Shown in pieces: positions 8,686 through 14,329 of a DNA stretch of 14,329 nucleotides (position 1 is its first letter; each line of letters opens with the position of its first letter). The DNA is from Atopobium sp. Its GTDB lineage: Bacteria > Actinomycetota > Coriobacteriia > Coriobacteriales > Atopobiaceae. The notes under the pieces were generated by a model. That model did not search any database. It was not told the origin of the DNA and saw only the letters and a program-made list of their open reading frames with translations. Made by a program: the position numbers and the translations under genes. The DNA lies in assembly GCA_015259045.1 (NCBI GenBank), contig JABZHD010000014.1, positions 1 to 14,329 on the forward strand. Reading direction: 5' to 3'.

Positions 8686-8760
8686 TCCCCGATGGCGCAG
8701 CGGTAGCGCAGCTGACTGTTAATCAGCGTGTCGCAGGTTCAAATCCTGCTCGGGGAGCCA
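8686..8760 (+). tRNA. tRNA-Asn (anticodon GUU), CCA encoded
   Basis: The acceptor arm TCCCCGA (8686-8692) pairs with TCGGGGA (8750-8756). The D arm contains GCGC-AGCGGTA-GCGC. The anticodon arm GCTGA-CTGTTAA-TCAGC (8711-8727) presents GTT at 8718-8720, which reads AAC/AAU (Asn). The T arm GCAGG-TTCAAAT-CCTGC is canonical. The discriminator base is G (8757) and CCA is encoded in the DNA (8758-8760). Its own promoter and terminator make it a single-gene unit. Confidence 0.96.
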
Positions 8761-9055: not shown

Positions 9056-9075
9056 AAATGAGAAAGGTCACTACT

Positions 9076-10359
9076 ATGGATGTGTCTCGTCGCAGTTTTC
9101 TAAAGTTCTGTGGTCTAGGCGTTCTTAGCGTTGGTGGATCTAGCGTTCTTGCAGCTTGCGCACCTAGCGAGAAAAAAGAGGAAGGCGCTAAAGGTGCAAA
9201 GGTAGAGAACAAGGATAAGCCTGTTGTCTTCTTCAACCGTCAGCCTTCTAACAGCTCAACCGGTGAGCTTGATACCAACACCCTTAACTTCAACAAGGAC
9301 ACCTATTACGTTGGCTTTGATGCAGTTCAGGGCGCAGAGCTCCAGGGCCAGATGGTTCTTGATTACATCAAGGCTCACGCAGCTGAGCTTGATCGTAACA
9401 AGGATGGCATCATTGGTTACGTTCTTGCAATTGGTGACATCGGTCACAACGACTCTATCGCTCGTACTCGTGGTGTCCGTAAGGCACTTGGTACTGGTGT
9501 TGAGAAGGACGGCAAGATTATTTCTGATCCAGTAGGCACCAACACTGACGGCTCCGCATCTGTTGTTCAGGACGGTAAGCTTGAGGTTGGCGGCAAGTCC
9601 TACACCATCCGTGAGCTTGCTTCTCAGGAGATGAAGAACACCGCTGGTGCAACATGGGATGCTGCAACCGCTGGTAACGCAATTGCTGCTTGGTCTTCTT
9701 CCTTCGGCGATCAGATTGATGTTGTTGTTTCCAACAACGACGGTATGGGTATGTCCATCTTCAACGCATGGTCAAAGGCTCAGAAGGTCCCAACCTTTGG
9801 TTACGACGCTAACTCTGACGCAGTTGCAGCTATTGCTGACGGCTATGCAGGCACCATTTCCCAGCACCCAGATGTCCAGGCTTACCTGACACTCCGTCTG
9901 CTCCGCAACGCTCTTGACGGTGTTGACATCAACACCGGCATTGAGACTGCAGACGAAGCTGGCGACAAGATTGACTCCAAGGACTACAAGTATGTTGCAG
10001 ATCAGCGTTCTTACTACGCTCTCAACCTTGCAGTTACCGCTGAGAACTACAAGGACAACCTTGACGCAACCACTCCTTACAAGGATGCTTCTGCTCAGCT
10101 GAGCGCAGACAAGCACCCAGAGAAGAAGGTTTGGCTCAACACCTACAACTCTGGCGACAACTTCCTTGGTTCAACCTATGTTCCACTGCTCAAGAAGTAT
10201 GCTCCACTGCTCAACCTCAACGTTGAGTACATCGCAGGCGATGGCCAGACTGAGTCCAACATTACCAACCGTCTTGGCAACCCTGACGAGTACGATGCAT
10301 TTGCATTCAACATGGTTAAGACCGACAACGGTTCTTCCTATACCCAGCTGCTTAAGTAA
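9076..10359 (+). CDS. mglB: Galactose/glucose-binding lipoprotein of the Mgl transporter, circularly permuted
   Basis: This is the substrate-binding protein for MglA/MglC. It has 427 residues from ATG 9076; an in-frame ATG at 9058 would add MRKVTT. A twin-arginine signal (SRRSFLK, 4-10) precedes a lipobox LAAC with Cys28, so it is probably a Tat-exported lipoprotein. The segment order is abnormal. The mature chain begins at the strand KPVVFFNRQP (48-57), which in MglB lies about 90 residues in. It continues through GDIGHNDSIAR (120-130), DRNKDG (106-111, calcium-loop-like), Trp194, SNND (219-222) and FGYDA (241-245) to the native C-terminal strand near ALNLAVTAENYKDNL (315-329). A linker (330-350) then leads into what is normally the N-terminus: KVWLNTYNSGDNF (351-363) to DAFAFNMV (407-414). 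E. coli contacts D14, F16, N91, H152, D154, R158, W183, N211 and D236 have counterparts here; N256 is Gln263. An insertion of roughly 25 residues lies at about 151-189. Confidence 0.88.
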   Translation: MDVSRRSFLKFCGLGVLSVGGSSVLAACAPSEKKEEGAKGAKVENKDKPVVFFNRQPSNSSTGELDTNTLNFNKDTYYVGFDAVQGAELQGQMVLDYIKAHAAELDRNKDGIIGYVLAIGDIGHNDSIARTRGVRKALGTGVEKDGKIISDPVGTNTDGSASVVQDGKLEVGGKSYTIRELASQEMKNTAGATWDAATAGNAIAAWSSSFGDQIDVVVSNNDGMGMSIFNAWSKAQKVPTFGYDANSDAVAAIADGYAGTISQHPDVQAYLTLRLLRNALDGVDINTGIETADEAGDKIDSKDYKYVADQRSYYALNLAVTAENYKDNLDATTPYKDASAQLSADKHPEKKVWLNTYNSGDNFLGSTYVPLLKKYAPLLNLNVEYIAGDGQTESNITNRLGNPDEYDAFAFNMVKTDNGSSYTQLLK

Positions 10360-10463: not shown

Positions 10464-11972
10464 ATGGCAGATACAGAAAACGATATCGTTCTAACAATTG
10501 ATGGAATGAGCAAGTCCTTTGGACGTAACCGCGTTCTGGATCACATTTCAATGAACGTACGCCGTGGAACCGTTATGGGTCTTATGGGAGAGAACGGCGC
10601 AGGCAAATCTACCATGATGAAGTGCCTGTTTGGTACGTATCAAAAAGATGAAGGCAAGATATTTCTTGACGGCAAAGAGGTTAATTTCTCCGGACCAAAA
10701 GACGCACTTGAGAATGGTGTCGCAATGGTTCACCAGGAGCTTAACCAGTGCCTCGATAGAAATGTTGTAGATAACTTGTTCCTTGGTCGCTATCCCGTTA
10801 ATGCAATGGGTGTTGTCGACGAGGGACGCATGAAAAAAGAAGCTAATGAGCTCTTCAGGCGTCTTGGTATGACTGTAGACCTGACACAGCCTATGAAGAA
10901 CATGTCAGTATCTCAGCGTCAGATGTGCGAGATTGCAAAGGCAATTTCTTACAACGCTAAGATTATTGTTCTTGATGAGCCTACTTCTTCGCTTATGACT
11001 CAAGAGGTCGAGAAACTCTTTGAGATGATTCGTATGCTCAAAGAGCAGGGAATTTCACTGGTCTACATCTCTCACAAGATGGATGAGATCTTTGAGATTT
11101 GCGACGACATTTCAGTTCTTCGTGACGGCAAGCTTGTTATGACCAAGCGCTCTGATGAGACCAACATGAATGAACTTATCTCTGCAATGGTTGGCCGCTC
11201 ACTTGAAAATCGCTTCCCAGATGTTACTAACACACCTGGTAAGACGTATCTTTCTATTCAGCACCTTTCAACTAAATACGAGCCATACCTTCAGGACGTC
11301 ACCTTTGATGTAAAGAAGGGTGAGATCTTTGGTCTGTATGGTCTTGTCGGCGCTGGTAGAACTGAGCTTCTGGAAACAATCTTTGGTGTAAGAACCAGAG
11401 CTGCCGGTCGTGTCTACGTCAACGAGCACCTTATGAACTTCTCGACAGCTGCAGAGGCAATGGATCATGGTTTTGCCATGATTACCGAGGAGCGCAAGGC
11501 AAACGGCTTGTTCCTTAAGGGCGATTTGACGTTTAACACAACCATTGCAAACTTGAACCAGTACAAGGCTGGTCCAATTCTTTCTGATCCTAAGATGACT
11601 AAGGCTACCGTCAACGAGCTCAAGGTTATGAATACCAAGGCTCAGGGTCCATCAGACTTGATTTCAAGTCTTTCTGGCGGCAACCAGCAGAAGGTCATTT
11701 TTGGTAAATGGCTCGAGCGCTATCCTCAGGTTTTCCTGATGGACGAGCCTACTCGTGGTATTGATGTTGGTGCTAAATATGAGATCTACCAGCTCATTAT
11801 TGATATGGCTAAGAGCGGTACCACTATTATCGTAGTCTCTTCGGAGATGCCAGAGATTTTGGGAATTACCAACCGTATTGGCGTTATGTCCAACGGCAGG
11901 CTCTCGGGCATTGTAAATACCAACGAGACAAATCAAGAAGAACTCCTGCGCCTCAGCGCAAAGTACCTGTAG
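10464..11972 (+). CDS. mglA: Galactose/methyl-galactoside ABC importer, double ATPase subunit
   Basis: MglA powers sugar import by ATP hydrolysis on the inner face of the membrane. The 502-residue length and tandem nucleotide-binding domains match the MglA/RbsA/XylG family. Domain 1 has Walker A GENGAGKST (42-50), a signature region SVSQRQ (148-153) and Walker B IIVLDEP (167-173). Domain 2 has the characteristically degenerate Walker A GLVGAGRT (293-300, lacking the Lys), an intact signature LSGGNQQK (403-410) and Walker B VFLMDEPT (423-430). In this family the second site is usually catalytically unequal. The ATG is preceded by AAGGGG (10451-10456). The gene lies 104 bases after mglB, and its stop codon overlaps the mglC ribosome binding site. 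Substrate assignment rests on the neighbouring MglB and MglC rather than on this subunit. Confidence 0.93.
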   Translation: MADTENDIVLTIDGMSKSFGRNRVLDHISMNVRRGTVMGLMGENGAGKSTMMKCLFGTYQKDEGKIFLDGKEVNFSGPKDALENGVAMVHQELNQCLDRNVVDNLFLGRYPVNAMGVVDEGRMKKEANELFRRLGMTVDLTQPMKNMSVSQRQMCEIAKAISYNAKIIVLDEPTSSLMTQEVEKLFEMIRMLKEQGISLVYISHKMDEIFEICDDISVLRDGKLVMTKRSDETNMNELISAMVGRSLENRFPDVTNTPGKTYLSIQHLSTKYEPYLQDVTFDVKKGEIFGLYGLVGAGRTELLETIFGVRTRAAGRVYVNEHLMNFSTAAEAMDHGFAMITEERKANGLFLKGDLTFNTTIANLNQYKAGPILSDPKMTKATVNELKVMNTKAQGPSDLISSLSGGNQQKVIFGKWLERYPQVFLMDEPTRGIDVGAKYEIYQLIIDMAKSGTTIIVVSSEMPEILGITNRIGVMSNGRLSGIVNTNETNQEELLRLSAKYL

Positions 11973-11987
11973 GAGAGGATGATACAA

Positions 11988-13643
11988 ATGCCAAAAACAG
12001 GTGGATCTGTTCTGACGGCCGAGCAGGAAAAAGAGCTGCTAAAGCCTATTGATCAGAAGATTGGTTCCATTCAGGCTCAAATTGATGAGCTTCGCGCAAA
12101 TGGTACCAACAAAGTAATTTCAACACTGAGCGCTATTGAGTCAACAAAGCGCGATAAGTCTATCTCTGCTGAAGAGCGCAACACGCTAATTGAGGGCTAC
12201 AAGGCTGAGCTGGAGCTTGCAAAGAAGGTTGAGTCCGAGAACAGTGCTCAGGTCTCCAAGCTTATTGCAGAGGCCGAGGCGTATCTCAAGGAGCACTACA
12301 AGAGCGAGTATCTTGAGCCAGTTAAGGCAAGCTGTGCCGTAGAGAAGGAGCAGGCTAAGCAGAATTACGCTGCTGCTCTTGAGCGCCTCAAGAAGGAGCA
12401 CGAAGAGGCTGTCAGCAAGACTTCTGATGCTCAGGAAATCAAGGATGAGAAGTACGTCTATAAGAACCGTCAGTTTGATGCTAAGGTCAACTATCAGAAG
12501 GACCTTCAGCTCATCAAAGACCGCGCTCATAATGCGTTTAGTCATGAGTATCACCTCATCGACCTTCTCAGGATGTCTAAGTTCACTCCACTGGAGTCTC
12601 AGGCTCAGAAGTGGGAGAACTACAAGTACACCTTTAACACCCGTTCATTCTTGCTTCAGAACGGTCTGTACATTGTTATTCTCCTGGTATTTATTGCCCT
12701 TTGTATCATTACCCCAGCAGTCAAGGGCACTCAGCTCCTGACATACTCCAACGTCATCAACATTCTTCAGCAGGCATCGCCTCGAATGTTCCTGGCTCTT
12801 GGTGTAGCTGGATTGATTCTGCTTACCGGTACTGACCTGTCTATTGGTCGTATGGTTGGTATGGGCATGACCGCTTCAACCATCATCATGCACCAGGGCA
12901 TCAATACTGGTCAGGTCTTTGGTATCACTTTTGACTTTACCGGTATTCCAATTCCTGTCAGAATTATTATGGCTTTGGTTACCTGTATTGTTTTGAGTAC
13001 CTTCTTTACCAGCATCGCTGGCTTCTTTACCGCTAAGTTTAAGATGCATCCATTCATCTCCACCATGGCTAACATGCTGATTATCTTTGGTATTGTTACC
13101 TATGCAACAAAGGGTGTTTCATTTGGCGCTATCGAGCCATCTATTCCAGATATGGTTATTCCACGAATCGGCAAATTCCCATCCATCATTTTGTGGGCAA
13201 TCGCGGCTATCGCTATTGTTTGGTTCATCTGGAACAAGACCACCTTTGGTAAGAACCTCTACGCTGTAGGCGGAAACCCTGAGGCAGCAGCTGTTTCTGG
13301 TATTTCAGTCTTTAGGGTCATGGTTGGCGCTTTTGTCATGGCTGGTATTCTGTATGGATTTGGCTCTTGGCTTGAGGCCATGCGCATGGTTGGCTCTGGT
13401 TCCGCAGCTTATGGACAGGGTTGGGATATGGACGCAATCGCAGCCTGCGTTGTTGGTGGCGTCTCGTTTACTGGTGGTATTGGTAAGATCTCCGGTGTTA
13501 CCGTGGGTGTTCTTATCTTCACTGCACTGACTTACGCACTGACCATTCTTGGTATCGATACCAACCTGCAGTTTGTCTTCTCGGGCGTCATTATTCTGAC
13601 CGCTGTCACCCTTGACTGCTTGAAGTACGTCCAGAAGAAGTAG
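11988..13643 (+). CDS. mglC: Galactose/methyl-galactoside ABC importer permease with long N-terminal helical extension
   Basis: The ATG at 11988 is preferred: AGGAGAGG (11971-11978) lies 9 bases before it but directly abuts the in-frame ATG at 11979. The product has 551 residues. Residues from about 225 to the end align by eye over the whole length of E. coli MglC (336 aa). Recognisable segments are LALGVAGLILLTGTDLSIGR, the cytoplasmic EAA-like loop NKTTFGKNLYAVGGNPEAAA, the DAIAACVVGGVSFTGGIG segment and the C-terminal LDCLKYVQKK; about eight to ten membrane helices are present. Residues 1-220 have no hydrophobic segment and are rich in Glu, Lys, Ala and Gln with heptad-like patterning, so they are probably cytoplasmic coiled coil. 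That is unusual for MglC. The extension is in the same open frame with a good ribosome binding site, so it is not an assembly artefact of two start sites. The gene is the last of the operon. Confidence 0.92.
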   Translation: MPKTGGSVLTAEQEKELLKPIDQKIGSIQAQIDELRANGTNKVISTLSAIESTKRDKSISAEERNTLIEGYKAELELAKKVESENSAQVSKLIAEAEAYLKEHYKSEYLEPVKASCAVEKEQAKQNYAAALERLKKEHEEAVSKTSDAQEIKDEKYVYKNRQFDAKVNYQKDLQLIKDRAHNAFSHEYHLIDLLRMSKFTPLESQAQKWENYKYTFNTRSFLLQNGLYIVILLVFIALCIITPAVKGTQLLTYSNVINILQQASPRMFLALGVAGLILLTGTDLSIGRMVGMGMTASTIIMHQGINTGQVFGITFDFTGIPIPVRIIMALVTCIVLSTFFTSIAGFFTAKFKMHPFISTMANMLIIFGIVTYATKGVSFGAIEPSIPDMVIPRIGKFPSIILWAIAAIAIVWFIWNKTTFGKNLYAVGGNPEAAAVSGISVFRVMVGAFVMAGILYGFGSWLEAMRMVGSGSAAYGQGWDMDAIAACVVGGVSFTGGIGKISGVTVGVLIFTALTYALTILGIDTNLQFVFSGVIILTAVTLDCLKYVQKK

Positions 13644-13960: not shown

Positions 13961-14329
13961 TCAAAGCAAGTGCAACGTTTGGTGATGGTAGACTTCCCAA
14001 GGGCACTTCCAACCCAGACGCTTACGTGGCCTTAGGTTGAGTTCATTATATACTGCCTCAATCTCTCTATCGCTAATCGATGAGAGGTCTGTGCCTTTTG
14101 GAAAATACTCTCTTATGAGGCCGTTGGTATTTTCATTGGTACCTCTTTGCCAGGGATGATGTGGAAGACAGAAGTAGATACTTACTCCGATAGCTTCTTG
14201 AAGCTCTGCTGCTCGAGCAAACTCAGATCCACGATCAAGCGTTATGGTTTTTACTACCTCACCTCTCAAAGCTTGCTGTATAGCTACATTGACATCGGCA
14301 CTAGACCCTGATGCAGCTTTGCCACCAAC
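13949..14329 (-). mobile_element. IS30-family insertion sequence, partial (right boundary approximate)
   Basis: Inferred from the transposase. The terminal inverted repeat should lie within a few tens of bases of the stop codon, in about 13900-13960, but with the left end outside the window it cannot be matched. Insertion is downstream of the mgl terminator and disrupts no visible gene. Confidence 0.6.
13961..14329 (-). CDS. IS30-family transposase, C-terminal part, cut by the window edge
   Basis: The reading frame runs on the minus strand from the window end to a TGA at 13961-13963, giving 122 visible residues; the N-terminal helix-turn-helix and the first catalytic Asp lie outside. The visible part is the second half of the IS30 DDE domain: TITLDRGSEFA carries the second catalytic Asp, and HPWQRGTNENTNGLIREYFP carries the catalytic Glu in the family hallmark NENxNGL(I/L)R. 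The KGTDLSSIS segment, the RPRKRLGWKCPWEVY block and a C-terminal LHLL tail are also typical. No frameshift or internal stop is seen, so the gene may be intact beyond the edge. A TTG at 14269 is internal and not a start. It faces the mgl operon convergently. Confidence 0.92.
   Translation of the reverse strand, partial: VGGKAASGSSADVNVAIQQALRGEVVKTITLDRGSEFARAAELQEAIGVSIYFCLPHHPWQRGTNENTNGLIREYFPKGTDLSSISDREIEAVYNELNLRPRKRLGWKCPWEVYHHQTLHLL

Follow-up and report, generated by a model that had tools for sequence, protein, structure and literature searches.

The mglB gene of the Atopobium sp. contig JABZHD010000014.1 is located at positions 9076..10359 (+) of the window, i.e., the whole stretch of 14,329 nt that was analysed, and it encodes a galactose/glucose-binding lipoprotein of 427 amino acid residues of the circularly permuted TpMglB-2 (Type Ic) kind. 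The start at 9076 was preferred to the one at 9058 because it agrees with the N-termini of relatives (MDMSRRKF..., MVISRRSF...). Directly 3′ of mglB lie mglA (10464..11972, +), encoding an ATPase subunit of 502 residues, and mglC (11979..13643, +), encoding a permease of 554 residues with BPD_transp_2 at residues 259-542. This is the layout of an MglBAC ATP-binding cassette (ABC) importer, and the best NCBIfam matches of the two genes were the corresponding families, both below the equivalog cut-offs (NF008215 MglA, 658.6 bits, cut-off 828; NF007014 MglC, 276.2 bits, cut-off 386). With gene names assigned from family matches, the order in the window, a piece of Coriobacteriia chromosome, was infB, rbfA, a DHH phosphoesterase gene, truB, ribF, dnaG, rpoD, a tRNA gene, mglB-mglA-mglC and an IS30 transposase fragment. 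We consider it highly probable that the window MglB binds the substrate for an mglBAC sugar importer, as a lipoprotein of the permuted TpMglB-2 branch, with the mechanism and single-origin history set out below.

A reading of this DNA made from the sequence alone had noted the permutation and knew of no natural permutant in the MglB family. The claim of novelty fails because TpMglB-2 (Tp0684) of Treponema pallidum was crystallised and published in 2016 as circularly permuted, in a class of ligand-binding proteins named "Type Ic / Cluster Bc" (PMC4990184). Homologues in Gram-positive bacteria were reported in the same paper, in whose main text (the supplementary cladogram not covered) the word "coriobacter" does not occur. 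Its PDB entries are 5JX2, 6BGC and 6BGD, the last two from 2018. The window MglB is thus a member of a known circularly permuted family.

Segment order, predicted fold and export signal of MglB

Pfam matched residues 43-282 of MglB to Peripla_BP_4, covering profile positions 76 to 256 of 258 only, and residues 349-419 to PF18610 (Peripla_BP_7; 146.2 bits, cut-off 36.8, profile positions 1-71 of 71), a family listed among solute-binding profiles (PMC9602780) from which the window segment showed no difference. Two Peripla_BP_4 matches in swapped order had been anticipated in the sequence-only reading; one was obtained, starting at position 76, and the C-terminal segment belonged to PF18610 instead. 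The classical MglB profile NF011924 gave 102.2 bits, split in two stretches, against a cut-off of 420, and thus no full-length match in classical order. In a profile comparison, residues 47-329 (9214..10062, +) paired with residues 84-307 of mature E. coli MglB, and residues 351-420, within the transposed segment of residues 350-427 (10123..10356, +), paired with residues 4-74. NTYNSGDNF stood opposite TIYKYDDNF, the GDGQTESN region opposite the DSQNDQ region, and DAFAFNMVKTDNG opposite KALAINLVDPAAAG; over 65-67 columns, both the strands and the D-N-F motif of the sugar contacts were in register. The gap between the two aligned parts is the linker of about 20 residues (330-349; 10063..10122, +) that joins the native C- and N-termini, and it sits where the fourth hinge and connection published for TpMglB-2 (PMC4990184) would be expected. 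The rotated order, the classical N-terminal motifs at the C-terminus and the new linker had all been claimed in the sequence-only reading and were confirmed.

The model predicted from a 52-row alignment matched the TpMglB-2 structures 5JX2 and 6BGC end to end and shared its fold with classical MglB (E. coli 2FVY, Salmonella 1GCA) over residues 44-328. The contact residues were mapped via the published TpMglB-2 table: D14, F16, N91, H152 and D154 of E. coli correspond to D361, F363, N54, H124 and D126, and R158, W183, N211 and D236 to R130, W194, N221 and D244, so that all nine contacts named earlier are kept. The tenth published contact, N256, is Q263, the sole change relative to E. coli, and Gln is also found in TpMglB-2. 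Nine of the ten positions were invariant across all 52 aligned permuted proteins, as were the side-chain Ca ligands D106, N108, D110 and D215; the D14 position was Asp in 51 of them and Asn in TpMglB-2 alone. The window protein thus resembles TpMglB-2 in the permuted order of the whole mature protein (structure alignments give 44-46% identity), in nine of the ten contacts, in the four Ca ligands and in being encoded by the substrate-binding gene of an ABC sugar importer, but it differs in D361, in a signal of the twin-arginine translocation (Tat) type and in phylum. With classical MglB it shares the fold, nine of the ten contacts and the operon partners, but not the segment order or the residue at N256. 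The earlier view that the binding site is retained and the protein probably functional is supported. Two rows of a smaller alignment (A1), P0006 (525 residues) and P0008 (479 residues), carried an internal duplication of the permuted protein, each on a single contig; these are probably assembly artefacts.

The lipoprotein signal reported from the sequence alone (9076..9159, +) was found, with the lipobox LAAC and Cys28, and was refined to the twin-arginine type (SRRSFLK; TIGR01409, 21.7 bits, cut-off 16.7, E 1.8e-4). The motif was compared over 80 named loci, the best of the 481 relative-encoding stretches among 515 from a scan of genome contigs; the 80 come from Coriobacteriia and several Bacillota classes. 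An RR motif ahead of the lipobox was present in all 18 Coriobacteriia loci and in one of the two loci lacking a class assignment, but it was absent from the 60 Bacillota loci (54 Clostridia, 2 Erysipelotrichia, 2 Tissierellia, 1 Bacilli and 1 unclassed). The permuted protein thus appears to be exported by different routes in different phyla.

Distribution of the permuted operon

A protein search limited to candidates of 0.55-1.75 times the query length gave at least 7974 matches with E of 0.001 or lower, some of which may be classical relatives, among the 7996 candidates scored before the scoring limit was reached, and PF18610 was present in all 120 matches listed. By genome, PF18610 was found in 25 of the 296 genomes sampled from the window's class, Coriobacteriia. 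It was also found in 3 of 291 genomes of the class of a Hungatella genome (the Clostridia sample) and in 2 of 199 genomes of the phylum of a Levyella genome, the centre being included in both counts, and in none of 14 control genomes. Among plasmid records, 75 of 72,556 matched the treponemal query, and two, from Treponema saccharophilum and Agathobacter rectalis, covered at least 80% of it; a scan of viral contigs found no treponemal copy.

Trees of MglC and MglA were built from 30 operons (22 permuted and 8 classical), and each separated the permuted from the classical operons at 100/100; Treponema took the outermost place within the permuted group. The MglB region common to both kinds, put into a tree for 15 of the 52 permuted proteins and 35 classical or more distant ones, likewise gave one permuted clade (99/98; 100/100 without the outgroup). 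The sampled permuted operons thus form one clade across three phyla. Within it, the MglC and MglA trees place Coriobacteriia at shallow, moderately supported forks among Bacillota; this placement suggests horizontal transfer of the operon, which the authors of the 2016 paper had also proposed (PMC4990184).

In Bacillota permuted operons, a histidine kinase and an AraC-type response regulator were each matched in 45 of the 80 loci (E 1e-15, 25-100% identity to the L048 copies); neither was found among the Coriobacteriia loci or in the window. The closest named relative is Atopobium sp. BS2 (MglB 97% and MglA 100% identical), and an rpoD match in the fetched flank was seen in only 3 of the 80 loci (L027-L029). 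The tRNA gene of the window lies between rpoD and mglB (8686-8757, +). At 13961-14329 (-), the frame of an IS30 family transposase (NF033563, 131 bits) runs past the window end, so that its C-terminal part lies inside.

How the permutation arose

The permuted order could reflect a true circular permutation or, as raised in PMC4990184, the capture of a C-terminal segment from a different gene that converged on the structure of the MglB N-terminus. Profile comparisons bear on this choice. With the first profile set, the moved segment scored 22.7 against the classical N-terminus; none of 200 column shuffles reached this score (maximum 18.5), and the reversed profile gave 12.6. With a richer set (32 classical N-termini and 52 permuted C-termini, 25 of the latter kept by the filter of the program), the score was 25.0; all 500 shuffles stayed below it (maximum 20.5, mean 10.9), and reversing the profile gave 7.5. 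When 11 sliding 92-residue stretches of classical MglB were compared with the moved segment, the N-terminal one was best (22.7 vs at most 18.0). The converse comparison, with stretches of the permuted protein against the classical N-terminus, gave 27.0 for residues 45-125, above the moved segment, and this was due to nine columns that represent the ordinary overlap at classical 84-92; residues 305-385 (24.2) and 325-405 (23.9) each include some of the moved segment. When the whole classical profile was used, the best-scoring shuffle among 200 came near the real score (21.7 vs 23.0).

Several points weigh against the proposed reading, and two of them are also what gene capture would have in its favour: the hhalign probability for the moved segment was modest (20% with the first set, 40% with the richer one), and neither a single-sequence PDB search nor Pfam linked the segment to classical N-termini. 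The low published identity (13% over 100 residues; PMC4990184) also speaks for capture. Beyond the moved segment, the MglC tree and both MglB trees, with and without the outgroup, carry long-branch warnings, and the first structure run, from the nine close sequences of A1, was poor, with a predicted local distance difference test (pLDDT) value of 60; only the 52-row run was good. Because of the modest probabilities, the homology of the moved segment to the classical N-terminus is supported rather than proven. Its match in register nevertheless favours a true permutation, and, together with the shuffles, the reversed profiles and the preference for the N-terminal stretch, it makes gene capture an unlikely origin. 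The loss of the first 100 codons of a normal mglB by an assembly or reading error, which had been named as a way to overturn the permutation, is next to impossible, given a 97% identical copy with the same order in another genome, PF18610 in 25 of 296 genomes of the class and crystal structures of a relative.

A benefit of permutation for lipid tethering was suggested in PMC4990184, in that strain from the anchor would be kept off the contacts D14 and F16. A simple lipobox pattern in 75 of the 80 permuted loci (the five misses all being Clostridia) agrees with it, but the pattern was also present in 12 of 15 classical transporter proteins examined (of the other three, L151 has a doubtful start and L152 starts too far downstream), and five classical-order MglBs of the window's own family (L122-L126) have signal-plus-Cys N-termini, read by eye. 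Because classical-order MglBs often carry a lipobox, tethering alone fails to explain the permutation, and an adaptation of this kind is, in our estimate, quite improbable.

Tandem duplication of mglB with loss of the outer halves had been put forward in the sequence-only reading as the route to the permutation. A classical-order MglB-like gene was located upstream of permuted mglB, on the same strand and within a histidine kinase module, in 8 of the 80 loci (L042, L048, L061, L064, L065, L086, L092 and L104), and divergently in a ninth (L044); these nine accounted for all second mglB matches in the 80 loci. Near them lie the histidine kinase, a response regulator (unmatched in L042 and L065) and an additional binding protein (unmatched in L044); the classical-order neighbour is perhaps a sugar sensor subunit. 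A bolder reading would make this neighbour, found in some Clostridia, a remnant of the tandem duplication behind the permutation. It is not supported, since the free trees do not place the neighbour as sister to the permuted protein: with a distant outgroup, the nine fell with the classical proteins, at a weakly supported fork (88/75), and without it they joined the classical clostridial transporter L153 (99/95). Constraining them with the permuted proteins was not rejected by the approximately unbiased (AU) test (p 0.341 and 0.315). No half-deleted mglB intermediate was seen in the 80 loci; this was no systematic search for fusions, since the protein search was limited to the length range given above.

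As regards the permuted mglB itself, the permutation most likely happened once, in the ancestor of the operon, by rearrangement of an mglB gene, and the operon would afterwards have spread among Spirochaetota, Bacillota and Coriobacteriia. In the window's organism, MglB would be exported, probably via the Tat route, and lipid-anchored at Cys28; it would fold into the usual two lobes, with its own C-terminal segment completing the N lobe, close on D-glucose (perhaps D-galactose too) and pass the sugar to MglC/MglA.

The MglC extension and its meaning

The window MglC has about 229 residues (11979..12665, +; rich in K, E, A and L) ahead of its first hydrophobic stretch (residues 230-248), and E. 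coli MglC (336 residues) aligned to it from residue 220 onward only. No Pfam family reached its cut-off in the extension, and a phmmer search of the PDB with MglC gave no match. When residues 1-214 were used as the query, 26 of the 296 genomes of the class matched, and 25 of these were exactly the PF18610 carriers (in one, G081, the match was read through a TAA in the matched stretch); the 26th match (E 8e-4, in a frame of 1182 residues) looks like chance. The extension was present in 77 of the 80 permuted loci, and the other three end at a contig edge before mglC. The MglC of Treponema saccharophilum (562 residues) has an extension related to that of the window (36% over 87 residues, pairwise E 5e-8); the Agathobacter MglC has 549 residues.

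The controls for the extension were the Clostridia sample and three named operons of classical type, those of E. coli, Cetobacterium and Fusobacterium; the MglCs of the last two (336 and 339 residues) lack the extension. In the Clostridia sample, where mostly four candidates were scored per genome, 37 of 291 genomes gave MglC matches with E values no higher than 1e-40. The three with an extended MglC were the three with PF18610, one of them (G297) also holding a second, unextended MglC-like gene; in 33 the match started at query residue 205 or later, and G558 ends at a contig edge. Among 14 fetched clostridial stretches with unextended MglC, 13 had a classical-order MglB, and the short 14th showed none. 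The five genomes holding L122-L126, where the classical-order MglB lipoproteins have no mglA/mglC neighbours, contained neither PF18610 nor the extension; these loci could not be used as a control because the fetched stretches held no mglA or mglC of the kind (L132 and L133 gave weak matches to other ABC genes only). Thus, the extension of about 215 residues accompanies permuted MglB in every readable case and is missing from the classical MglCs examined. No description of it was found in searches of open-access PMC full text, and in PMC4990184 tp0686 is mentioned once and "MglC" never.

The place of the extension before the first membrane span and its composition suggest a cytoplasmic helical module. 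It is possible, albeit doubtful, that permuted MglB and extended MglC are always paired, arose together once and function together as part of a re-built transporter rather than by neutral accident; the module may then couple MglC to MglA, a regulator or glucose metabolism, for example.

With the fold already published, the main addition of this analysis is an example from Coriobacteriia in which site and operon are conserved. The profile evidence for a true permutation over gene capture is also useful, this question having been left open in 2016 (PMC4990184). The occurrence of permuted MglB with extended MglC in three phyla offers a natural case for asking what a rearrangement brings along. 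The function is ordinary, and the MglC extension is the part most worth following: if the transporter was indeed re-built, permuted MglB would be only half of a distinct importer type.
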